Source: Myxococcales bacterium (GTDB lineage: Bacteria; Myxococcota_A; Polyangia; Haliangiales; Haliangiaceae). Taken from it: a DNA stretch of 24,152 nt. The translations under genes and the position numbers were made by a program. The notes beneath the pieces were generated by a model that saw only the letters and a program-made list of their open reading frames with translations, was not told where the DNA came from and ran no database searches. Of the stretch, positions 3,742 through 20,500 are shown piece after piece; position 1 is the stretch's first letter, and each line of letters begins with the position of its first letter. The stretch covers positions 1-24,152 of the forward strand of contig JADKKI010000003.1 of the NCBI GenBank assembly GCA_016720595.1. The letters are read 5' to 3'.

Positions 3742-3901
3742 GCGATCGGGGCGTGGCGTCCGCGACCGGCGAGGCGTGGACGCTCACCGTGGTGGTCGGC
3801 GTAGCCTGTGGATCGACCATGGCGCGGCCGTCGGAGTCTGCAGCTCGCTGTCGGGCGACCTCGGCCCGGGCGTGGTGCTTGCTAAGGACATGTTGGGTCC
3901 C

Positions 3902-4777
3902 ATGCTCAACTACAACCACCTCTACTACTTCCATGTGGCCGCCCTCGAGGGCTCGGTGGCCGCAGCTGCGGTGCGGCTCGGCGTGACGCAGCCGACCGTC
4001 AGTGAGCAGGTGAGGGCGCTCGAGCGCGCACTCGAGGTCTCGCTGTTCGAGCGCCAGTCGACGGGCCTCCGGCTGACCGAGGCAGGACGACTCGCCTTCG
4101 AGCACACGCAGGTGATGTTCCGCGCGAGCGAGCACCTTTCGGAGGCGCTGGGACACGGCCCGCGCGCGCTGCCGAAGACGTTGCGGATCGGCCTCTCCGG
4201 TGCGGTGGCGCGGACCACCAGCACCGATTTCTTGCTGCCGTTGCTCGAGCTCGAGGGGTGCATCCCTTCGATCCGCGCGGCAGATACGACCGAGCTGCTG
4301 CGGGACCTGCGCGGCTCGGAGCTCGATCTCGTGCTGTGCGAGACCGAGCCACCCGAGGCTGGCCGCCGCGGGCTCGAGATCGTGAAGCTCGCGACCATGA
4401 CCTTGATCGCGGTGGGACCGCCGTCGCTCGTCCTCGCGCCCGACTGGCAGGACGCGAAGCTCATCAACTACCGTGTGAGCTCCGCGCTGCGCTGGGATGT
4501 CGATGCGTACCTCGAGGCCAAGGGCCTGCGGCCGAGGCTGGTCGCCGAGAGCGACGATGCCCTGTTCCTGGTCGAGGCCGCGGCACACGCCGGCTATGTC
4601 ACGTTCGTGCCGCGTTCGATCGCGCGCGACGCGATCGCCAACGGCCGGCTGGCGGTGATCGCGGAGCTCGGTCCTTCGCACGCTGGCGTGTTCGCGCTGT
4701 ACCAGGATGGCAGCTCTGCGGACCTGGCCCGACGGGCCGTGGAGCTGCTGGTGGCGCACCTCCGCGCCGTCACCTGA
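3902..4777 (+). CDS. LysR-family transcriptional regulator, NhaR-like
   Basis: The N-terminus MLNYNHLYYFHVAALEGSV closely resembles NhaR, whose N-terminus has INYNHLYYFW. The winged helix-turn-helix lies at residues 17-37 (AAAAVRLGVTQPTVSEQVRA), followed by LFERQSTGLRLTEAG. The rest is the two-lobed effector-binding domain. The length of about 291 residues fits the family (NhaR is near 300). NhaR activates the Na+/H+ antiporter gene nhaA in response to sodium. No antiporter is next to this gene, so its target is unknown. The longest frame begins with GTG at 3776, but that adds 42 residues absent from relatives. ATG 3902 or ATG 3890 is preferred, with a weak AAGGA at 3884-3888. The 148 nt upstream hold no clear promoter. 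The frame is intact. Confidence 0.85.
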   Translation: MLNYNHLYYFHVAALEGSVAAAAVRLGVTQPTVSEQVRALERALEVSLFERQSTGLRLTEAGRLAFEHTQVMFRASEHLSEALGHGPRALPKTLRIGLSGAVARTTSTDFLLPLLELEGCIPSIRAADTTELLRDLRGSELDLVLCETEPPEAGRRGLEIVKLATMTLIAVGPPSLVLAPDWQDAKLINYRVSSALRWDVDAYLEAKGLRPRLVAESDDALFLVEAAAHAGYVTFVPRSIARDAIANGRLAVIAELGPSHAGVFALYQDGSSADLARRAVELLVAHLRAVT

Positions 4778-4829
4778 GCCGAGGATCGTCCGATCGGTTC
4801 GTCACACCCGTCTGGTAAGACCGGAGGGT

Positions 4830-6200
4830 ATGGGCAAGATCAAGCCCCTCAAGCCGCGCAGCATTCACCGCTGCCAGGCGTGCGGCCACGTGGAGTCCAA
4901 GTGGCAGGGCCGGTGTCCTGCGTGCCAGGAGTGGAACTCGCTCGTCGAGGAGATGGACGCGGCGGGGAACGCGCGCACCAGCGCCTCGGGGATCGCCGAT
5001 GGCCACGCGCCGATCTCGATCGTCGACGTGCGCGAGATCAGCGCCTCGGATCGGCAGTCCACGCAGATCGGTGAGCTCGATCGTGTCCTCGGTGGAGGCC
5101 TGGTCGCGGGCAGCCTCGTCCTGCTCGGCGGTGATCCAGGCGTGGGCAAGTCCACGTTGCTGATCCAGGCCCTGGCGGGGCTCGCGCGGGGTGGCCGCGT
5201 GCTGTACGCGACCGGCGAGGAGAGCGTGGCTCAGACGGCGATGCGCGCACGCCGGGTCGGGGCCTCCGACGCGCGGCTCGCCGTGGTCGCGGAGACGGAT
5301 GTCGAGAAGATCCTCGCGCACGCCAAGGCGGAGCCGCCGGCGATCCTCGCGGTGGATTCGATCCAGACGATGTACACGCCGTTGCTCGACTCGATCCCGG
5401 GCTCGCTCGCGCAGGTCCGCGAGTGTGCGAGCCGCCTCATGCAGTATGCGAAGACCTCCGGCGTCCCCACGATCCTCGTCGGTCATGTCACCAAGGATGG
5501 TGGCCTCGCCGGTCCCAAGACGCTCGAGCACCTCGTCGATGTGGTGCTGCAGCTCGAAGGCGACGGTGGTCCGTACCGGATCCTCCGGGCGCACAAGAAT
5601 CGGTTCGGTTCCACGCAAGAGATCGGCGTGTTCGAGATGCGCGGCGCCGGGATGGCCGAGGTCACCAATCCGTCCGCGCATCTGCTCGCGGAGCGCCCGA
5701 TCGGCGCGCCCGGCTCGGTGGTCGTGGCCTCCGCCGATGGCGCGCGCCCGTTGCTGGTGGAGATCCAGGCGCTGGTAGCACCAGCCAGCGCGGGCGTCGG
5801 GCGGCGGACCGCCGCGGGGGTGGACGGCAACCGGGTCTCGCTCCTGCTCGCGGTGCTCGCGCAGCGTGCGAGCTGCGATGTCCTCGATCGGGACGTGTTC
5901 GTCAACGTCGCCGGTGGGTTGCGCCTCGCGGAACCCGCGATCGATCTCGGCGTGGCCTGCGCGATCGCGTCATCGGCGCGCGGCCGCGCGATCGACGCGA
6001 AGACCGTGGTGTTCGGCGAGGTCGGGCTCGCAGGCGAGGTTCGTGCGGTGCCGCTGTGCGAGCAACGGCTCGCGGAGGCCGCACGGCTCGGCTTCACCCG
6101 GGCGCTGATCCCTGCGCAGAACCGGCTACGGATCGAGAACCCGATGGGGCTCGAGTTGGTGTTGATCGATCGCCTCGTGACCGCGCTCGCCGAGCTCTGA
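4830..6200 (+). CDS. radA: DNA repair protein RadA (Sms)
   Basis: RadA is a RecA-like ATPase that promotes branch migration and processing of recombination intermediates in the cytoplasm. All family marks are present in 456 residues (E. coli RadA has 460). There is a C4 zinc finger at residues 15-32 (CQAC...CPAC) and a Walker A motif GGDPGVGKST at about 100-109. These are followed by the ATPase core with ILAVDSIQT, the RadA-specific KNRFGST motif, and a C-terminal Lon-protease-like domain (GNRVSLLLAVLAQR, AIDLGVACAIASS, VGLAGEVRAV). ATG 4830 is chosen because the protein from here matches the family N-terminus. A GGAGGG sits very close to it (4823-4828). The gene lies 52 nt after the LysR gene, so read-through is possible. 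The frame is intact. Confidence 0.97.
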   Translation: MGKIKPLKPRSIHRCQACGHVESKWQGRCPACQEWNSLVEEMDAAGNARTSASGIADGHAPISIVDVREISASDRQSTQIGELDRVLGGGLVAGSLVLLGGDPGVGKSTLLIQALAGLARGGRVLYATGEESVAQTAMRARRVGASDARLAVVAETDVEKILAHAKAEPPAILAVDSIQTMYTPLLDSIPGSLAQVRECASRLMQYAKTSGVPTILVGHVTKDGGLAGPKTLEHLVDVVLQLEGDGGPYRILRAHKNRFGSTQEIGVFEMRGAGMAEVTNPSAHLLAERPIGAPGSVVVASADGARPLLVEIQALVAPASAGVGRRTAAGVDGNRVSLLLAVLAQRASCDVLDRDVFVNVAGGLRLAEPAIDLGVACAIASSARGRAIDAKTVVFGEVGLAGEVRAVPLCEQRLAEAARLGFTRALIPAQNRLRIENPMGLELVLIDRLVTALAEL

Positions 6201-10847: not shown

Positions 10848-11969
10848 GTGCGCGACGATGTCGGTCAGCTCCTGTGGGTCGGATTTCCGTCGACGACGGT
10901 GCCGCCCGCGCTCGCGGCCAAGCTCGACGCCGGTCAGGTCGGTGCGACGATCCTGTTCCAAGCGCAACCTCACGATCGAGATCAGTGCGGGCTCGGGCGT
11001 CAGCCAGGAGGTCTGTGACCTCGATGCGCTGGTGGCCCTGAATGCCGCGCTCCATCGCAGTGCGCCCGATGGGACGCCCGCGTTGATCGCGGTGGATCAA
11101 GAGGGCGGCCTTGTTCAGCGCGTCCGCGCACCCGCCACCCAGTGGCCGCCGATGCGTGCCCACGATGGCCTCGCTGCTCCCGACGACACCGCGCTGGCGG
11201 AGCAGGTCGGGCGTGCGATGGGCGACGAGCTCCGCGCGCTGGGCTTCGACATCGACTTCGCGCCGATCCTCGATGTCCACACGAACCCGGCCAACCCGAT
11301 CATCGGAGACCGCGCCTTCGGCGTGCTCCCCGAGACGGCGGCGCGCCGCGCGCTCGCGTTCGCGCGCGGGCTCGATGCCGCGGGATCCTGGCGTGCGGCA
11401 AGCACTTCCCCGGGCATGGCGACACCGCGACCGATAGCCACCTGGAGCTGCCGCGGATCGATCACGACTGGGATCGGCTCGAGCGCGTGGAGCTCCTGCC
11501 GTTCGAGCGCGCCGCGGCCGCCGGCCTCCCGATGCTGATGACCGCGCACGTGGTGTTCGCGGCGCTCGATCCTTCGCGCCCGGCGACGCTCTCGGACCAG
11601 GTCATCACGGGCCTGTTGCGCGGCAAGCTCGGCTATCGCGGCGTGATCGTCAGCGACGATCTCGACATGAACGCGATCGCCTCGCACATGGGTGCGGACG
11701 TCGCTGCCGTGGCTGCGATCCGCGCGGGCTGCGATGCCTTGCTGCTGTGCCGCAACGAGGAGCACCAGGCCGCCGCCGAGGTCGCGCTGATCCGCGAGGC
11801 CGAGCGAGACTCCACGTTCCGCGCTCGCGTGGGCGATGCCGCGGCGCGGATCCGCGCGATGAAGCGCGCCCACGTCGCGAATCAGGCGAGCCGGCCCGCG
11901 CCGGCCCGCGCGATCGTCGGCAGCTTCGAGCACCGCCGCCTGGCGGACCGGCTCGCCGGTCGCGCCTGA
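10848..11969 (+). CDS. nagZ: Glycoside hydrolase family 3 beta-N-acetylhexosaminidase, NagZ-like, two frameshifts
   Basis: NagZ removes terminal N-acetylglucosamine from peptidoglycan turnover products in the cytoplasm. Diagnostic motifs are present: ALIAVDQEGGLVQRV, FAPILDVHTNPANPIIGDRA, the GKHFPGHGDTATDSH loop with the Asp/His acid-base pair, and YRGVIVSDDLDM with the nucleophilic Asp. The rebuilt length of about 373 residues is normal for the family. An extra C near 10962 (TTCCAAGCGC) and a missing G near 11388 (GCGGGATCC) shift the frame twice and cancel out. GTG 10848 is chosen because VRDDVGQLLWVGFP matches the family N-terminus, and no signal peptide is present. It follows the MopE-motif lipoprotein by 17 nt. 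Assignment to GH3 is firm; the precise substrate is inferred. Confidence 0.88.
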
Positions 11970-11992
11970 CGCGTGCCCGTCGCGCCTGACGC
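11959..11992. repeat. Short 14-bp direct repeat spanning the nagZ stop codon
   Basis: GTCGCGCCTGACGC occurs at 11959-11972 and again at 11979-11992, a 20-nt period with a 6-nt spacer. The first copy contains the nagZ stop TGA (11967-11969). Replication slippage or an assembly duplication could produce it. Confidence 0.6.
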
Positions 11993-12010
11993 TCTGGCTA
12001 CTGCCAGAGC
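11991..12010. terminator. Hairpin shared by two convergent genes
   Basis: GCTCTGGC (11991-11998) and GCCAGAGC (12003-12010) form a perfect 8-bp stem with a TACT loop. The stop codon of the minus-strand YXWGXW gene (11998-12000) lies in the hairpin. There is no T-run on either side, so terminator function is uncertain. Confidence 0.45.
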
Positions 12011-13207
12011 CCGGCGGTGAAGGTCCACCTGCCGCCGACGTTGTCCCAGTGCGCGTCGACCCAGCGCTTGTTCGCGCGCTCGCGCTCCCAGTGCCCGGCG
12101 ACCCACTCGTAGTCGCCGTTCTTCCACTCGAAGCCACCCTTGATCCAGAGGAAGCCCGCGCGGCTTCACGATCTCGACCGGGGGCGCAGGCGGCGCAGCG
12201 TCGGGCTCCTTGGGAGCATCGGCCCAGAGGCCCGCACTGAACTGCCACTTGCCGCCGGTGTTCTCCCACCGGCCCTCGCGGAACCGCTTGCCGTTCTTGC
12301 GGGCCTCGAGGTGACCGGGCTGCCACTCGAAGCTGCCGTCCTCCCACTTCCAGTACCCGGGGATCCACGTCGAGCCCCGGCGGAACTGCGGCGTCTCGTC
12401 GATCGCCTTGGGAGGAGCCTCGGGCTCCTTGGGCGCATCGACCCACATCCCTGCGGTCAGCGTCCACTTGCCACCGGCGTTGCCCCAGTGCGCATCGACC
12501 CAGCGCTTACCGCGCGTTCGCCGCTCGAGGTGACCGGGGACCCAGTCGTACGAGCCATCGGCCCACTGCCAGTAGCCCTTGATCCACACCATGCCGCGAC
12601 CGCGCTGCTCGGTCTCGGCGAGCAGCGCCGGTGGGGCGTCTGGCTCCTTCGGTGCGTCAGTCCACAGCCCTGCGGTCAGGGTCCACTTGCCGCCGACGTT
12701 GTCCCAGTGTGCATCGCTCCAGCGCTTGCCACGCTGCCGGCGCTCGAGGTGACCCGGCACCCAGTCATACGAGCCATCGGCCCACTGCCAGTTGCCCTTG
12801 ACCCACACCATGCCGCGGCCGCGTTGCTCGGTCTCGGCGATCGGTGCCGGCGGCGGATCGGGCTCCTTGGGCGCATCGTTCCAGGTCCCAGCGAGCCAGA
12901 CGTAGCGATCACCCTGCTTGTCCCAGCGACCGGTATTCCACCGCTTGTTCTTCTTGCGGCCCTCGTAGTGGCCGGGCTTCCAGTCCCACTTGCCTCCGCG
13001 CCACTCGTAGCTCCCGGCGACCCAGACCTGGCGGCGACGAGGGCTCCACTTCTCATCGCGCGGTGCGGGTGGCGCCTCGCGCGGACCATCGTCGACGCGC
13101 CGGCCGCGATCGGGACCGCCGCGGTCGCGATCGCCGGGTTGAGCGGAAGCGGTGATCGGCGCGAGCACGAGGCTCGCGACGACGAGAGAGCTGATCCAGC
13201 TGCGCAT
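11998..13207 (-). CDS. Secreted YXWGXW-type tandem-repeat protein, one frameshift
   Basis: A Sec signal peptide (MRSWISSLVVASLVLAPITA, then SAQ) is followed by an Arg/Asp-rich linker. Five tandem units of about 65-70 residues come next, related to the Trp-rich YXWGXW repeat family. The unit reads approximately: W(V/I)xGxWxWxxGxYxWxPGH, then ExRxxxKRW, W-N-GGKW, AGxW-DAPKEPD, and a Pro-rich linker. The last unit is in another frame: a shift near 12155 makes the raw reading run on as an Arg-rich tail, while the correct frame ends FTAGLWQ and TAG at 11998-12000. The total is about 402 residues. Function of such repeats is unknown; a beta-rich, aromatic, extracellular or periplasmic structural role is inferred. 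It is convergent with the nagZ-like gene and appears to be monocistronic. Confidence 0.82.
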
Positions 13208-13213
13208 GTACGT

Positions 13214-13218
13214 CCTCC
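13214..13218 (-). promoter_or_regulatory. Ribosome binding site of the YXWGXW gene
   Basis: On the minus strand GGAGG is followed after 6 nt (ACGTAC) by ATG at 13207. It selects MRSWISS as the start and rejects the longer in-frame reading from 13291. Confidence 0.75.
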
Positions 13219-13314
13219 GTTGGTTGCGGACGAACGATGACACCCTCCGCGCGTCTTGCCTCGAGGGCGGACGCTCGGACCCTTGGTTCACATACGATCT
13301 CGCTGTGAGCTAAC

Positions 13315-13330: not shown

Positions 13331-16300
13331 CTACTTCTCGAGCGTGTCCGCGCCCGGCCCGGTCGGCTTCACGGTGACCCCCGCGCCTCCGATGATCGTG
13401 AACTCGACGCGGCGGTTCGTGGCGCGGCCTTCCTTCGTTGCGTTCGTCGCCTTCGGGACATCCTCGCCAAAGCCCTGCGCCTCCAGCCGATCGGGCGCGA
13501 TGCCCTTCTTGATCAGGTAGGCCATGACGGCCGCCGCGCGGCGCTGCGACAGCTTCTTGTTGGAGATGTCGTCGCCCTGACTATCGGTGTGACCCTCGAC
13601 GCGGATCTTGGTGATCTCGGGATGGGTGGAGAGGACCCGGGCCACATCGTCGAGGAGCGGGAACGAGCGCGGCTGGATCAGCGCCTTGTTCAAGGCGAAG
13701 TACACGATGTCGAGGATCTCGAGCTTGCCGTCGCTGATCTTCACCAGCTGCTTTGCCTTGCATCCCTGGTTCTCCACCGGGCCGGGCTCGTCGGGGCAGT
13801 TGTCCAGGCGGTCGACGACGGTGTCTCCATCTCGATCCGGATCGGGGCAGCCCTTCATCGCGACCAGACCAGGGACGTCGCGACACGCGTCGTCAACATC
13901 GAGCACGGTGTCGTTGTCGTTGTCGGGATCCGGGCAGCCGTTGGCGTCCTCGAAGCCGTCGACGTCCTCCGCCTGCAGCGGGCACTGATCAGCCGTGCCG
14001 AGGATCCCATCCTTGTCCGGATCGGGATCATCGGGGCATCCATCGTCGTCCTCGAACGAGTTCACGTTCTCGGGCTCCTTCGGGCATCGGTCGACCGAAT
14101 CTACGAAGCCGTCGCCATCGGTGTCGAGGATCTTGATCGGCTCGCGCTTCGCCGCGGCCGGACCGGTGCCCACGCGGACACCCGCGAGGACGCGCCAGTC
14201 AGGCGTGCCGAACCCCTCCGCGAGGCCGACGCCCGCCACGCCGAACAGGCGCACGTTGCGGGTGGCATCCGCCGCGAGACCGCCACGCAGCTCCGCGTGG
14301 TTGCGGTTGAACGCGCCGAGGACATCATTCGCCGCGGTCGCGAGATCGAATGTGCCATCGAGCTCGAGGTTGTTCGCGAACCGGTACCCCGCGCCGGCTT
14401 GCGCATACACCTCGTCATCGACGATCAGGTTGAGCGCGCGCGAGGTGGGGCGCGCACGGTAGCCGCCGCCGATCGAGATCCGGCTGCCGCGTGAGCGGCC
14501 GCGCGAGATCGCGATCGCGGGGCTGACGGTGACGCCGTTGTCTCCCGCGTAGTCATCGCTGGTCGAGGTCGGCAGCGTGACGCCGACGAGGATCGCCACC
14601 GCGACGGGAGACCGGCCCTGCCGGATCACCTGGACCTTCGGGGTGATCCGGAGATCTCCGAGACCAAAGCCGCTGAGGCTCCCGTTGGGGTTCATCAGGC
14701 CGTTGAGATCGGAGGACTGTGCGACGATCAGCGGGGCGCCGAGATCGAGCTCGAGTCGGTCGTACAGGTGGATCGAGCCGACGAGCTCGCCGCCGACCCG
14801 GTTGTGGACGAACGCGGCGACGCGATCGCCGTTGCTCATCTGATAGACGTTCAGCGGATCGTTCGCGTAGCCGAGCCACAGCGCCGCATCGATCGTGAGG
14901 TGACCCTTTACCTCGGCCCACTCGACGCCCAGGATGCCGTCGCGGTGCGCGGCGAGCTGGAACCGCTCGGCCGGGTACGTGGTCGCGACCTGCGCCGCGG
15001 CCGGGCGCGCGCCGAGCCCGATCCACGTCGCGATCAGGAGCGCCGCGATGCCCGTGGCCCGCCGGCGCCGCAAGGTGAGCATCGCGCCCAGGCCGAGGAC
15101 CAGCACGAATCCGGCCCCGTTGCCGCCGGTGCTGCAGCCACCACCCTGGAGACCGAGGTCGTCGTCGAAGCCATCGCCGTTGTCATCGGGATCGCACTCG
15201 TTGCCGAGGCCATCGCCATCGGTGTCGAGCTGGTCGTCGTTCGCGAGCACACGACAGTTGTCGGTGAAGTCGGTGATCGTGTCGTTGTCGCTGTCGGGAT
15301 CCTGGAAGTCCGGCTTGCCGTCGCCATCGGTATCCACGGGGTTGGTCGGATCGTCTCCGGCCTCGTCGTGGTCGCTGATCTGGTCGCCATCGGCGTCGAG
15401 ATCGCGCTGGTCGGGCGTGCCGTCACCATCGGTGTCGAGGCCAGGGCTGCCGCCGCCGAACGCGGGGTCGGCATCGACCGTGGTCTTGATGCCGTCGTGA
15501 TCCACGTCGTCTCCGTCGACCTTGCCGTCGTCGTTCGCATCGAGGCTGCCGTGGCCCGCCTCGTCGAGATCGAAGATGCTGTCGCCGTCGGAGTCTAGAT
15601 CGCGATAGTCGGGGAGGCCGTCGCCATCGGTGTCGGGCGGGGTGGTGTACCCGCCGGCGCCAAAGCCGTTCGTGTGATCGGCCGAGGCGGGGATGCCATC
15701 CTTGTCCGGATCGTTGCCGTCGCACACGCCGAGCGCGGGGGTATCGGTGCACGTCGTGCCGTTCTCCGCGAGGTCGGTGATGCCGTCATCGTCCGAATCG
15801 AGATCGCGGAAGTCCGGGATCAGATCTCCGTCGGTGTCGATCGGCGGCTGCTTCGCGGTGCCGCTATCCGGGGCGGTCTCGACGGCATCGCACAGCCCGT
15901 TGGCGCCGAAGCCACCCGGGCAATCGCCGCGGCCATCGTGATCGGCGTCCACGAGGCCGTGACCCGCCTCGGCGACATCGGGGAGGCCATCGTTGTCGCT
16001 GTCGAGATCGTGATCGTCGGTCACTCCATCGCCATCCGTGTCGACGCCACCCTCGACGCTGTCGGGGATGCCGTCGTTGTCGTCATCGAGATCGATGCTG
16101 TCCGAGACGCCATCGCTATCGAGATCCGCCTTGGTGCCGAACCCGGCGAAGCCATCGGCTTGATCGACCACGCCGTCGCCATCGGTGTCGGGCCCATCGC
16201 AGCGCTGGTTTGCCGGCGTGGTGTCCGTGCACCCGCTGACCAGGGTGTCGGGCATGCCGTCGTTGTCCCGATCGAGGTCGCGATAGTCAGGTTCGTCCAT

Positions 16301-19300
16301 GCCGTCGGTGTTGGTCGGCGTGGTCGGCGAAGGATCGCCGAACGTCATCGCCCCATCGATCGAGTCCGCGATGCCATCGTGGTCGGTATCGGGCCCGTCG
16401 CACACCGCGTTGCCATTGAGGTCGACGCAGCCGCTGCCGCCTTCGCTCAGATCGGTCAGGCCGTCGTCATCGGAGTCGAGATCGCGAAAGTCCGGAACCG
16501 GGTCGAGATCGCCGTTCGGCGGAGCGACCAGCGTTGCCGAGTCCGCGAGGCCATCGCCGTTGGCATCGGGGCCATCGCAGACCGCATTGGCCGGTGTGGT
16601 GTCGGTGCAGCCGGAGCCGCCCTCGACGCGATCTGGCAGGCCGTCGTTGTCGGTGTCGAGATCGCGGAAGTCCACCGCGCCGTCGCCATCGGTATCTGGC
16701 GGGACCTGGTTGGTCGCGGCGTCGGCGAGGCCGTCGTTGTTCGCGTCCGGACCATCACAGCGACCGTTGCGCGGCGTGGTGTCCGCGCAGCCGCTGCTGC
16801 CCTCGATCACGTCGGGGATGCCATCGTTGTCGGCGTCGAGGTCGCGGAAGTCCGGCCGGCCATCGCCATCGGTGTCGACGAGCCCCTCAACGTTGTCGCG
16901 GAGGCCATCGCCATCGGCGTCGAGATCGCGGTAGTCCGGGCGGCCGTCGCCATCGGTATCGGGGCGGGTCGCGGCGGCGTCGTCGGCCACGCCATCTCCA
17001 TTCCCATCGGGGCCATCGCAGGCACCGGCCGGGGCCACCGTGTCGGCGCACGCCGAGTTGCCCTCGACGAGATCCTGGATGCCGTCGCCGTCGGCGTCGC
17101 GGTCACGGAAGTCGGGGGTGTTGTCGGCGTCGGTGTCGGGGCGGTCGGGGTAGGTCTGGACGCCGAGGCCATTCGCACCGTCGCGCGCGTTGACCACGCC
17201 ATCGCCATCGGCGTCGGCGCCGTCGCAGCGGCCATCGGCGGGGCCGGTGTCGGCGCACGCCGAGTTGCCCTCGTCGAGATCGTGGATGCCGTCACCATCG
17301 CTGTCGAGATCGAGGAAGTCGGGGAGCCCGTCCCCATCCGTGTCGAGCGCCGCATCGGGGCCCATCTGGTCGTTGTTCCAGTCCACGATCGCGTTGTCGG
17401 GCGCCGTCTCCACGGAGTTGCACAGGCCGTTGGTGCCCGTACCGCCACTACAGTCGAGGCGACCATCGCGGTTGGCATCGGGGAGCGAGCGCGCCACCTC
17501 GACGACGTCGAGGATGCCGTCGTTGTCGCTGTCGAGATCGAGGTGGTTCGGCGTGCCGTCGCCATCTCGATCGAAGTCGAGGCCGAGCGAATCACAGACG
17601 TTGTCGAGGTTGGCGTCGGGGCATACCTGCGCCATCCCGTCGCCTCGATTGTTTCGATCGCGGAAGTTGGGGACACCGTCTGCGTCGGCATCGGCGGTGG
17701 GGGCGATCCCGAACAGGTTCTCCTGCTTGTCGGGGATGCCGTCGTCGTCGTCGTCGAGATCGATCGTGTTGGGTGTGCCGTCGCCATCGGTGTCTCCACC
17801 GGTGCTCGTGATCGTGGTGGTCTGCGACGACGAGTTGTTCGTGAGGTCGGGATCGGCCGTCGCGGCGGACACGGTCGCGGTCGTGCTGAGGACGGTGGGG
17901 GCCGCCGGCGCCGTGACGACGATCGAGATCTGAGGCGCCGCGCCGGCGGCGAGCACCGCGCGGGTGCAGGTCACGGTCGCGCCGGCGAGGGTGCAGGTCC
18001 AGCCGGTGCCGGTTGCGCTGACGAACGTGGTGCTGGCCGGAACACCGAACACGGCGCTGACCGTGCTCGCGGCCTGGGGCCCGAAGTTCGTGATCGCCAG
18101 CGTGTAGGTCAAGGGCGCGCTGGTGGCGGCGGGATCGGGCGAGTCGCTGAGCGTGATCGCGATGTCCGCCGAGCCCACCACGGTGGTGGTCTGCGTCGCC
18201 GTGTTGTTCGCGGCACTCGGGTCCGCCGAGGTCGACGCGACGGTCGCGGTGTCGGTCACCACCCCGCCGGTGGCCGGCATCGTTGCGACGATCGTGATCG
18301 GCGGTGCGGCGCCCGGGACCAAGGTCGCGCGGGTGCAGGTCACGACGAGCACCGCGGCCGAGCACGCCCAGCCGGTGCCGGTCGCGCTGGTGAACGTCGT
18401 GCCCGCGGGCAGGGTGTTGGTGACGGTGATCCCCGCCGCGTTGCTCGGACCGAGGTTGGTGACGGCGACCGTATAGGTCTCGGTGCCGCCGCTGCTCACG
18501 GGATCGGTGGCGTCGGTCACGGCGATCGTGAGGTCGCTGCTCACGGTGATCTGGTCGGTGTCGGTGGCGGAGTTGTTGCCCGGTGTCAGATCGACGATGC
18601 CGGCAGGTGCGGTGACGGTCGCAGTGGTGGCGAGCGTGCCGGTCGTCGCGGGATCGATCGTCCCGGTGACGGTGAAGGTCACCGTGCCGGCGTTGGCCAC
18701 GGTGACGAGGCTGTTGAGGTTGCCGGTCCCGCTCGGCGCGCTGCAGCTGCCACCCGCGCTCGCGACGCAGGTCCAGGTGACGTTGGTCAGGGCCGCAGGG
18801 AACACCTCGGCGACCGTGGCTCCGACGACGACGTCCGCGCCTGCGTTGGTGACGCGCACGGTGTAGGTGACCGTGCTGCCGGCCGCCGCGCTCGCGACGC
18901 CATCGCTGTTCGTGATCTGGAGGTCATCGGTGGTGCAGATCGGCAGCTGGCCGAGCGTGGCGCTGGTGAGCCCCTGCGCGCCGCGCGTGGCACCGTTGGA
19001 AGGAAACTCGGTCACCGTCGGGCGGTTGGCCGTGCCACCGAGCGAGCCGACCACGGTGGCGGTCACCGCACCGCCCGAGGTGGCCACGAACCCACCACCA
19101 CCGCCGCCGCCGGGGCCCTCGGCCTCGAGGTTCGCCGACAGGGTCTGGTTGCCACCCACGCCGCCGTCCGCGTGAATCGCCACGCCGGAGAGGCTGGTCG
19201 CCTGCACGATCACGCTGCCACCCGCACCACCACCACCGGGCGCATCGCCCGGATCGTGCGCCGAGTTCACGCCGGGTGCTCCGTTCGCCGTGATCGATCC

Positions 19301-20500
19301 GGTGCCCGAGACCGTGGGCGCGACGAGTAACACCAAGCCACCACCCGCACCGCCCGCGCCGGCTGCCGTATTGTTGCCGTCGCCGGCACCGCCACCGCCA
19401 CCGAGGAACACGCGCGAGGTCGCGATCGCCGCGAGCGGACGGCCACCGAGGCCGCCGACGTTGCGCCGGTTATCGCCGCCCCACGACGCGGTGCCCGGGC
19501 CGACGGTCAGCGCGTTCTGATCTGCGCCGGAGAACGTGTATCCGCCACGGCCACCACCAGACGAATTGGTGAGGGCGTTTCCGTTCGCGGCGAAGTCCGG
19601 ATCCACGGTCCACGCGGCGCTGCCGGTGACCGCGTTATCCATCACACCGGCACCCGTCCAGGGGCGCGCGTTGTCGCCGTTCGCGCCGCCACCACCGCCT
19701 GCGTTGTGGGCATCGCCGCCGCCGCCGCCGTTGGCCGGTGCGCCGCGGCCGAACCGTCCGTTGAACGCGGTGTCGTACCGGCCCTGATAGCCGGCGATGC
19801 TCTCGCCCTTCTCGCCGCCGCTCGCGTTGCTCGCCGAACGGATCGTCGTGGTGCCTGGCGGGTTCGTCGTCACGTCATCAGCCGCGCCGCCGCGGAACCC
19901 ACGCCCCGTGACGTCGATGCCCGCGCCGCCGACCGTGGCGCTCGCTTGCGCATGAACCGCGAGCACGCCGCCACGCGCGCCGTCCCACGTCCGTGCGGTC
20001 AGCGAGCCCGCGCCCGAGATCGTCAGCGTGGTTGCCTGCGGCACGCGGATCACCTGCGTCGCACCCGCGGTGGTGTACGCGAACCGCAGGCCGCTACACC
20101 CGGCCTCGAGGTTGATCGTTGCGCCGACCACCGAGGCGACGTGCACCAGCTCGTACGTGCCAGCACCACCGAGCGCCGTGACGCTGCCATAGGCTACCGT
20201 GTCGGTGGCGTCGATCGTCGTACCCTGTGGCTGGTACAGCATCACGAGATCGCCGGCGGCGAGCCCGGTGGTGAACGGCGCTGTCGCCGTGAAGTCGTTG
20301 ATGTTGGTGACCGTGATCGACAGCGCGCCAGCGGCGGCGTTGGCGGCGAGCACACCGTATTGATTGACGATCGTGTTCGCGGTGGTGATGGAGAGGGCAC
20401 CGGTCTGCCCGGTCAGCGGGCTGTCGTCGACGCTCTCCTCGATCGGCTCGGGACCACCGCAGGCTGCGAACAGCAACGCCAGGACAAGGTAGGAGCGCAT
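13331..20500 (-). CDS. Giant lipobox-DUF11-TSP3-MYXO-CTERM-OmpA fusion protein (2389 aa)
   Basis: A single uninterrupted frame encodes, in order: a lipoprotein-type signal (MRSYLVLALLFAAC, Cys14); a beta-rich, very Gly-rich region to about residue 515 (poly-Gly around 255-275); three DUF11-like Ig-fold repeats at about 518-895; a large thrombospondin type 3 (TSP3) calcium-binding array at about 899-1780; a MYXO-CTERM-like tail (GGGCSTGG with Cys1789, a hydrophobic stretch, then RRRR 1811-1814); a second signal-peptide-like segment ending ARPAAAQ (1831-1837); an outer-membrane barrel at about 1838-2115; a second TSP3 stretch at about 2122-2255; and an OmpA-type peptidoglycan-binding domain (EGHTDSQGDD, NKKLSQRRAAAVMAYL). 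An in-frame TAG lies 15 nt before ATG 20500 and fixes the start. Such segments are normally two genes. Either this is a natural polyprotein or a stop was lost. Confidence 0.85.
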   Translation of the reverse strand: MRSYLVLALLFAACGGPEPIEESVDDSPLTGQTGALSITTANTIVNQYGVLAANAAAGALSITVTNINDFTATAPFTTGLAAGDLVMLYQPQGTTIDATDTVAYGSVTALGGAGTYELVHVASVVGATINLEAGCSGLRFAYTTAGATQVIRVPQATTLTISGAGSLTARTWDGARGGVLAVHAQASATVGGAGIDVTGRGFRGGAADDVTTNPPGTTTIRSASNASGGEKGESIAGYQGRYDTAFNGRFGRGAPANGGGGGDAHNAGGGGGANGDNARPWTGAGVMDNAVTGSAAWTVDPDFAANGNALTNSSGGGRGGYTFSGADQNALTVGPGTASWGGDNRRNVGGLGGRPLAAIATSRVFLGGGGGAGDGNNTAAGAGGAGGGLVLLVAPTVSGTGSITANGAPGVNSAHDPGDAPGGGGAGGSVIVQATSLSGVAIHADGGVGGNQTLSANLEAEGPGGGGGGGFVATSGGAVTATVVGSLGGTANRPTVTEFPSNGATRGAQGLTSATLGQLPICTTDDLQITNSDGVASAAAGSTVTYTVRVTNAGADVVVGATVAEVFPAALTNVTWTCVASAGGSCSAPSGTGNLNSLVTVANAGTVTFTVTGTIDPATTGTLATTATVTAPAGIVDLTPGNNSATDTDQITVSSDLTIAVTDATDPVSSGGTETYTVAVTNLGPSNAAGITVTNTLPAGTTFTSATGTGWACSAAVLVVTCTRATLVPGAAPPITIVATMPATGGVVTDTATVASTSADPSAANNTATQTTTVVGSADIAITLSDSPDPAATSAPLTYTLAITNFGPQAASTVSAVFGVPASTTFVSATGTGWTCTLAGATVTCTRAVLAAGAAPQISIVVTAPAAPTVLSTTATVSAATADPDLTNNSSSQTTTITSTGGDTDGDGTPNTIDLDDDDDGIPDKQENLFGIAPTADADADGVPNFRDRNNRGDGMAQVCPDANLDNVCDSLGLDFDRDGDGTPNHLDLDSDNDGILDVVEVARSLPDANRDGRLDCSGGTGTNGLCNSVETAPDNAIVDWNNDQMGPDAALDTDGDGLPDFLDLDSDGDGIHDLDEGNSACADTGPADGRCDGADADGDGVVNARDGANGLGVQTYPDRPDTDADNTPDFRDRDADGDGIQDLVEGNSACADTVAPAGACDGPDGNGDGVADDAAATRPDTDGDGRPDYRDLDADGDGLRDNVEGLVDTDGDGRPDFRDLDADNDGIPDVIEGSSGCADTTPRNGRCDGPDANNDGLADAATNQVPPDTDGDGAVDFRDLDTDNDGLPDRVEGGSGCTDTTPANAVCDGPDANGDGLADSATLVAPPNGDLDPVPDFRDLDSDDDGLTDLSEGGSGCVDLNGNAVCDGPDTDHDGIADSIDGAMTFGDPSPTTPTNTDGMDEPDYRDLDRDNDGMPDTLVSGCTDTTPANQRCDGPDTDGDGVVDQADGFAGFGTKADLDSDGVSDSIDLDDDNDGIPDSVEGGVDTDGDGVTDDHDLDSDNDGLPDVAEAGHGLVDADHDGRGDCPGGFGANGLCDAVETAPDSGTAKQPPIDTDGDLIPDFRDLDSDDDGITDLAENGTTCTDTPALGVCDGNDPDKDGIPASADHTNGFGAGGYTTPPDTDGDGLPDYRDLDSDGDSIFDLDEAGHGSLDANDDGKVDGDDVDHDGIKTTVDADPAFGGGSPGLDTDGDGTPDQRDLDADGDQISDHDEAGDDPTNPVDTDGDGKPDFQDPDSDNDTITDFTDNCRVLANDDQLDTDGDGLGNECDPDDNGDGFDDDLGLQGGGCSTGGNGAGFVLVLGLGAMLTLRRRRATGIAALLIATWIGLGARPAAAQVATTYPAERFQLAAHRDGILGVEWAEVKGHLTIDAALWLGYANDPLNVYQMSNGDRVAAFVHNRVGGELVGSIHLYDRLELDLGAPLIVAQSSDLNGLMNPNGSLSGFGLGDLRITPKVQVIRQGRSPVAVAILVGVTLPTSTSDDYAGDNGVTVSPAIAISRGRSRGSRISIGGGYRARPTSRALNLIVDDEVYAQAGAGYRFANNLELDGTFDLATAANDVLGAFNRNHAELRGGLAADATRNVRLFGVAGVGLAEGFGTPDWRVLAGVRVGTGPAAAKREPIKILDTDGDGFVDSVDRCPKEPENVNSFEDDDGCPDDPDPDKDGILGTADQCPLQAEDVDGFEDANGCPDPDNDNDTVLDVDDACRDVPGLVAMKGCPDPDRDGDTVVDRLDNCPDEPGPVENQGCKAKQLVKISDGKLEILDIVYFALNKALIQPRSFPLLDDVARVLSTHPEITKIRVEGHTDSQGDDISNKKLSQRRAAAVMAYLIKKGIAPDRLEAQGFGEDVPKATNATKEGRATNRRVEFTIIGGAGVTVKPTGPGADTLEK
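15032..15160 (-). other. Internal MYXO-CTERM tail joined to a second signal peptide
   Basis: Residues 1786-1793 (GGGCSTGG), the hydrophobic stretch GFVLVLGLGAMLTL and RRRR (1811-1814) have the form of a MYXO-CTERM C-terminal sorting tail: Gly-Cys motif, transmembrane helix and Arg cluster. The chain then runs straight into TGIAALLIATWIGLGARPAA, a normal signal-peptide core with an Ala-X-Ala site (AAA|Q at 1836/1837). ATG 15082 (Met1807) could start an independent OmpA protein of 583 residues that uses the same Arg cluster as its n-region. No clear ribosome binding site precedes it. Confidence 0.7.
15161..17806 (-). repeat. Thrombospondin type 3 (TSP3) repeat array at DNA and protein level
   Basis: The array is made of DTDGDGxPDxxDLDxDxDGI units. 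On the plus strand this appears as repeated GCCGTCGCCATCGGTGTCG-like words, for example near 15319, 15620, 16173, 16682, 16947 and 17779. A higher-order unit recurs about seven times: PDFRDLD, D-GI-D, EGxSxC, DTxP, then CDGPDxxGDG. Asp side chains in such repeats bind calcium. The array is prone to recombination and to assembly collapse or expansion. Confidence 0.85.
17816..18949 (-). repeat. Three DUF11-like Ig-fold repeats in the giant protein
   Basis: Three units of about 120-130 residues each follow the DUF11 pattern. Each opens with a stretch like DLTIAVTDATDPVSSGGTET and YTVAVTNLGPSNAAG, passes through TLPAGTTFTSATGTGWAC, and ends with TVASTSADPSAANNTATQTT. Such repeats are beta-sandwich stalk modules of surface proteins and lift outer domains away from the membrane. 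Confidence 0.8.

Follow-up and report, generated by a model that had tools for sequence, protein, structure and literature searches.

A putative natural polyprotein of Myxococcota: a MYXO-CTERM surface protein running in frame into an internal signal peptide and an outer-membrane barrel

A single reading frame in the stretch of DNA analysed here (24,152 nucleotides, the whole of which we call the window) joins an adhesin-like protein with a MYXO-CTERM sorting tag to an internal signal peptide, a beta-barrel and a peptidoglycan-binding domain. We consider it quite probable that this gene specifies a natural polyprotein, with an Arg-looped hairpin at which a myxosortase and signal peptidase I both cut, the latter replaced by LspA in lipoprotein variants. 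Both cleavages, as well as the lipidation, the surface export and the pairing of adhesin with anchor, are what we infer from this arrangement. Cleaved polyproteins are uncommon in bacteria; if the reading is true, a single ORF would give rise to two outer-envelope proteins by way of two different membrane proteases, products that annotation and proteomics based on one mature protein per ORF would overlook.

Results

Architecture of the reading frame

The longest frame of the window (13331..20500) starts with ATG and encodes 2389 residues without a stop; it lies on the minus strand, as do all of its features described below. Its N-terminus reads MRSYLVLALLFAAC|GG, a lipobox-like signal peptide (LLFAAC14|GG, 20459..20500) of a type that a simple rule also assigns to other proteins of the same length class (61 of the 120 listed fused-length proteins, the window protein among them). 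Residues 30-275 (19676..20413) form an AgmC-N-like region, matched by NF047640 at 167.6 bits, which is below the cut-off of 275. Three stretches match the DUF11 repeat (PF01345, E = 1.7e-45 as a whole-protein value), the best of them being residues 656-771 (18188..18535). A stalk of Asp-rich, TSP3-like repeats, recognised by eye from the translation, extends over approximately residues 905-1780 (15161..17788), a region for which a Pfam search at E 0.001 returned zero matches.

The C-terminal part opens with a beta-barrel of about 12 predicted strands (residues 1870-2111, 14168..14893), modelled by AlphaFold2 with pLDDT of 70-91 in most 10-residue blocks and compared with solved structures by Foldseek, where its best matches are the COG4313 channel 4rl8 and FapF (5o68). 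A putative periplasmic linker follows (about residues 2117-2250, 13751..14152), Asp-rich and TSP3-like by eye, with conserved D columns and low to middling model confidence, and then an OmpA-like peptidoglycan-binding domain (residues 2267-2363, 13412..13702; PF00691, 74 bits against a gathering cut-off of 27.2) with structural matches to OmpA-type domains in PDB 5wtp, 3td3 and 5u1h. The model of the C-terminal part as a whole has a mean pLDDT of 70 and a pTM of 0.47. The N-terminal barrel of the outer-membrane protein OmpA has 8 strands. The preliminary description of this DNA had spoken of an OmpA barrel, a name that holds for the peptidoglycan domain and has to be given up for the barrel itself, which is approximately 12-stranded and COG4313/FapF-like instead of 8-stranded. 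The best NCBIfam model for the C-terminal part is TraB (NF033763), matched in two stretches of which the better covers the repeat and OmpA region (residues 2187-2382). At 240.9 bits the match falls short of the cut-off of 700, which rules out calling this part TraB; by sequence it appears distantly TraB-like.

Only 39 bases past the polyprotein stop, on the same strand, lies an ORF with WXXGXW repeats (11882-13291, minus strand) that is perhaps co-transcribed with the polyprotein gene. Elsewhere the window holds ordinary neighbours, namely a LysR-type regulator (3776-4777, plus strand) and a gene for an ATPase with AAA_25, LapB-type zinc ribbon and ChlI domains, which we name RadA-like (4707-6200, plus strand).

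A sorting tag that shares its Arg cluster with a signal peptide

The internal MYXO-CTERM tag occupies residues 1786-1814 (15059..15145) and comprises Cys1789, a first hydrophobic helix and RRRR 1811-1814. TIGR03901 matches residues 1786-1814 at 25.8 bits within a 50-residue segment and still gives 22.2 bits on a 101-residue stretch that includes the signal peptide (cut-off 20 in both cases), while TIGR03382 scores the segment 1786-1814 at 20.0 bits against a cut-off of 15.85. The Cys motif, transmembrane helix and Arg-rich end typical of such tags are thus all present, at an internal site with 575 residues beyond RRRR1814 where a MYXO-CTERM tag would ordinarily be C-terminal. From the tag the frame runs stop-free into ATGIAALLIATWIGLGARPAAA|Q1837. 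By sequence and loop statistics, the Arg cluster (15059..15070) would serve both as the cytoplasmic tail of the tag and as the n-region of a signal peptide whose h- and c-regions (residues 1815-1836, 14993..15058) end in AAA|Q1837. Judged by eye and by simple rules, RRRR-ATGIAALLIATWIGLGA-RPAAA|Q has the basic n-region, h-region and AxA site of a type I Sec signal, situated internally (residues 1811-1836) instead of at an N-terminus, and it lines up with the signal peptides at the N-termini of standalone relatives. The codons of Cys1789, RRRR and Gln1837 start at 15136, 15070 and 14992, so that the cysteine, the Arg cluster and the AAA|Gln1837 site lie at exactly the residues where the preliminary description had placed them, in a frame free of stops. 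Base composition by codon position remains coding-like over the junction, with a third-position GC of 0.94 for residues 1780-1850 and 0.83-0.89 in the four other stretches compared.

Recurrence of the junction

Using residues 1780-2389 as query against proteins of similar total length we obtained 639 matches and examined the best 120, a set that was no random draw and that includes the window's own protein (P0001). The nearest other protein among the matches listed, P0002, is 84% identical across the queried stretch and comes from a different contig. Cysteine, hydrophobic helix, Arg cluster, second helix and cleavage site were found in all of the best 120 of 639. This count comes from a revised rule that accepts only junctions with a Cys close to the helix and gives preference to Gln at +1, and its tally of Gln (118) is biased for the latter reason. 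A first rule had passed 111 of the 120; its misses were seven proteins in which an Arg/Lys cluster is evident by eye, P0028 with a TAD-type site, and P0101, a fused relative with a long, odd linker separating tag from signal peptide. By a simple rule, [AVSTG]x[AG]|Q is present in 119 of the 120 listed proteins, the exception being P0028. In the listed proteins the two helices are separated by a loop of 5 residues (median) whose Arg/Lys content averages 84%, and in the loci the second helix has the hydrophobicity of a signal peptide; the hairpin topology suggested in the preliminary description fits these figures.

Two helices and an Arg loop would also make a plausible stable hairpin, and one could imagine that the protein is never cut and that both helices remain in the inner membrane as a permanent double anchor joining adhesin and barrel. 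We regard this as very unlikely, since the outer membrane is where a 12-stranded barrel carrying a peptidoglycan domain belongs, and the barrel could hardly arrive there while held in the inner one, and since a hairpin of this kind sits poorly with a peptidase site kept in 119 and a tag cysteine kept in 120 of the 120 listed proteins.

At the DNA level 149 distinct barrel N-termini were retained, and 51 of these 149 barrel genes are fused: 53 loci were parsed as fused, from which L148 and L162 were removed by eye, and eight further loci with long open frames upstream that lack such a junction were counted as not fused. Because 60 of the loci (L128-L187) were selected by frame length or genome, the remainder (L001-L127) give a less biased share, with 24 fused, 14 adjacent and 55 other among 93; some of the loci labelled 'other' may conceal distant upstream partners. 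A specificity scan for the junction placed 40 of 40 matches inside barrel ORFs, a scan blind to lipoprotein variants because it required a type I site and drew on loci fetched by their barrel. L172 (G005:C81) contains a giant fused frame, of 7,322 residues in the genome search, and six of the fused barrel genes in the loci fetched belong to this genome, G005.

These data bear on a more trivial explanation, that assembly or sequencing error has fused two neighbouring genes in the window, whose protein is known from a single contig of 24,152 bases. The identical layout of the junction recurs in P0002 on its other contig, in the other listed proteins, in fused genes located on contigs of 13.76 and 10.33 Mb that are nearly whole genomes (L170 and L141, respectively), and in a fused locus of Myxococcus xanthus AM003 (L168, 1863 residues). 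In addition, related fused genes were compared in 22 pairs, which overlap in their members, and in 20 of these the junction has a pN/pS below 1. For the window an artefact is therefore scarcely credible, and for the family as a whole that reading is already excluded: the junction of the family is no artefact. The preliminary description had proposed a search for the same fusion in relatives, and had held that relatives always split, or an indel at the junction, would refute it; this refutation fails, as the in-frame junction recurs in 120 of the 120 listed proteins and in 51 of the 149 barrel genes.

Split counterparts and possible internal initiation

Standalone relatives of the C-terminal part carry an N-terminal signal peptide that ends near the same alignment position, with [AVSTG]x[AG]|Q in 69 of 82 and a looser site in 78 of 82. 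Measured uniformly in the loci, median signal hydrophobicity is 2.50 in fused genes (50 loci), 2.51 in standalone genes (76) and 2.46 in adjacent pairs (20), three rows without a recognisable site having been omitted. An apparent excess of hydrophobicity of the internal helix over standalone signals in the protein set (2.52, n=120 versus 1.91, n=80) was dropped, as the loci showed no such difference. Sufficient upstream DNA was available for 88 non-fused loci, and 20 of these have a separate upstream frame on the same strand with a MYXO-CTERM-like end by a simple rule. Of these 20 frames 16 stop within 180 bases of the ER anchor of the barrel, and in 8 of the 20 adjacent pairs a candidate start (ATGA, GTGA or TTGA) overlaps the upstream stop by exactly four bases. 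The traA-traB loci show a four-base overlap in L188 and L189 and, by eye, an overlap of one base in L190.

Mapped onto a tree of 150 barrels, the fused label requires 24 changes compared with a mean of 43.3 after shuffling, and at least 14 of the 24 fused/non-fused changes are forced by starred branches. The fused state is therefore inherited, yet has changed many times; this is a quick LG+G4 tree built with no mixture model and accompanied by long-branch warnings, on which gain and loss are indistinguishable. Repeated changes between fused and split are as expected if both states yield the same two proteins.

The overlapping candidate starts of the split relatives also lend some appeal to internal initiation. 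If translation began anew within the tag (ATG at 15082 or TTG at 15073), the barrel would be made with an ordinary N-terminal signal, and the long frame would be incidental or a by-product. In the window Met1807 (ATG) lies just ahead of the Arg cluster, where a start would yield MLTLRRRRATGIAALLIATWIGLGARPAAA|Q, and Leu1810 (TTG) is a second codon well placed for an independent start; ATG, GTG or TTG occurs between the Cys and the signal h-region in 51 of the 53 loci scored as fused, ATG in 31 of them. However, such a Met is not conserved, being no more than 6 residues from the Arg cluster in just 38 of the 120 barrel-type proteins and in 4 of the 11 of the amidase type (the latter described below; in P0247 the stretch picked is not its junction), and a Shine-Dalgarno-like start, matching in at least 5 of 6 positions, is present at 5 of 53 fused junctions (two of the 53 being later dropped as misparsed) compared with 32 of 64 standalone genes. 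Moreover, internal initiation leaves the absent upstream stop unexplained: because the upstream frame has no stop, the upstream protein must continue into the second. We consider internal initiation unlikely, and prefer to read the long frame as the precursor of both proteins.

Other tags that run into lipobox-like signals

Sampling TIGR03901 in 9 genomes at E 10 gave 476 matches, of which 138 were inspected with high scores favoured; one of the 138, L251, was a deliberate positive control. Among these 138 tags 125 end within 10 residues of the protein's end, 2 at 11-40 residues, and 11 run on for more than 40. Four of the 11 are of the barrel type, with barrel profile scores of 54.8 (L245), 187.8 (L251), 170.1 (L285) and a weak 16.7 bits (L316), and two in genome G163 (7047552 and 7084542) have no evident signal behind the tag. 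A lipobox-like signal was recognised by eye after the tag in 5 of the 138, two of them in G163 and the others in L256, L267 (G160) and L274 (G168), where the MYXO-CTERM tail continues in frame to the signal.

The first of the G163 cases (L233:2747-4771, minus strand) is an N-acetylmuramoyl-L-alanine amidase with a MYXO-CTERM tag, followed in frame by a lipobox-like signal and a second, lipoprotein-like part. All 11 relatives found, at identities down to 36%, keep the Arg cluster and a helix with a lipobox-like end, the ends being judged by eye and P0250 having Trp at -2; three of the relatives, P0249, P0250 and P0251, have more residues between Arg cluster and helix than the rest. One such relative is annotated as Sandaracinus amylolyticus. 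The amidase type was matched in 7 of 10 genomes of the family, and the same kind of junction is seen in five other genomes of the family (L293-L297). In the second case (L232:3022-7380, plus strand) a Cys-rich surface protein with a MYXO-CTERM tag and Arg cluster runs into a lipobox-like signal and a second Cys-rich repeat protein, a fusion that recurs in L300 and L301 (3 of 10 genomes searched).

With barrel, amidase and Cys-rich fusions in hand, the logic of the junction would therefore serve at least three protein pairs and, judging by motif, two kinds of signal peptidase. We lean towards the view that Myxococcota use a general polyprotein junction. A single Arg cluster would belong both to the sorting tag that closes one protein and to the signal peptide of the protein that follows, and the hairpin thus formed would be discarded after cleavage by myxosortase at one end and by signal peptidase I or LspA at the other. 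Such junctions would have arisen repeatedly from overlapping two-gene pairs and would join unrelated partners (adhesin with barrel, amidase with lipoprotein, Cys-rich protein with lipoprotein), fixing the 1:1 delivery of two envelope proteins.

Discussion

Taken as a polyprotein, the window's frame suggests the following sequence of events. The N-terminal signal would direct the adhesin-like part, with its DUF11 domains and TSP3-like stalk, into the periplasm, until the MYXO-CTERM helix acts as a stop-transfer sequence and enters the inner membrane from outside, like known myxosortase substrates. The Arg cluster would form a very short loop that stays on the cytoplasmic side, and export would restart at the second helix, acting as an internal signal peptide. 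Cleavage by signal peptidase I at AAA|Q1837 would release a 553-residue barrel/OmpA-domain protein, which could then insert into the outer membrane and bind peptidoglycan. A myxosortase would cut just behind Cys1789, the residue that is lipidated in the published model, releasing the adhesin for surface display, and a hairpin of about 47 residues would be thrown away. The outcome would be one adhesin per anchor, produced at the same site of synthesis, in the fashion of TraA/TraB from one ORF. Given its lipobox-like N-terminus, the adhesin part may carry lipid at both ends, in which case the second lipid may be redundant.

In genomes other than that of the window, a homologue of the myxosortase MrtX accompanies fused genes in 25 of 26 cases, compared with 0 of 14 control genomes. 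The MrtX family cut-off is exceeded in 3 of the 26, and one genome, G139, gave no MrtX match at E 1e-10; the assignment of the enzyme is therefore by homology. As far as the sections of Guo, Haft & Wall (2025, PMC11980579) drawn on here relate, MrtX cuts the tag of TraA, in E. coli as well.

If the polyprotein reading is right, it describes a route for pairing adhesins with anchors throughout Myxococcota. The frequent changes between fused and split genes would amount to a natural experiment on tying two proteins to one ribosome, and the precursors would offer size-separable substrates for tests of myxosortase and of the lipidation step.

The Bradyrhizobium cytochrome b/c1 precursor FbcH is a bacterial polyprotein cut at an internal signal peptide; it differs from the present case in that a sorting tag is absent and both products are respiratory subunits.

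A single fusion case resembling the window protein is already known. MXAN_5598 of Myxococcus xanthus, of which our AM003 locus (L168) is likely the counterpart, carries its MYXO-CTERM internally, with a large adhesin part ahead of it and a beta-barrel/OmpA part behind, and is presented in the consulted sections of PMC11980579 as an atypical, rare fusion for which the authors propose gene fusion and processing of the N-terminal part. In a table of OMV proteins in PMC4158809, MXAN_5598 is entered simply as an 'OmpA domain protein'. The abstract, fifth Results section and Discussion of that paper, together with a term search of the rest, do not refer to a signal peptide inside the protein, to a second cleavage, to a family or to lipoprotein variants. 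Likewise, within the consulted parts of PMC11980579, PMC3325183, PMC13184517, PMC12045341, PMC12288465 and PMC6372800 (a scope that left subscription journals and supplements aside), we found no description of these features, of how broad the family is or of repeated fusion. The archaeal protein HVO_0405 of Haloferax volcanii is also a fusion with a central sorting tag cut by a sorting enzyme, but this enzyme is ArtA instead of MrtX and the fusion is strain-specific; the parts of PMC7157517 consulted for these points mention no internal signal peptide.

A close functional parallel is TraA/TraB, in which a MYXO-CTERM surface receptor is directly followed by a barrel/TSP3/OmpA partner. The M. 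xanthus traA and traB ORFs overlap by four bases (PMC3325183, in the part used here), and in one survey the traA/traB orthologues form an overlapping two-gene operon in all cases examined (PMC6372800, likewise in part); this, together with the many changes of the fused state on the barrel tree, indicates that fusion is not required. The window differs in having one ORF in place of two genes, and its adhesin part is DUF11/TSP3-like, where TraA has PA14 with Cys repeats. It nonetheless combines in one locus, here in fused form, the two elements of a TraAB-like system, a MYXO-CTERM protein and a barrel partner with an OmpA domain.
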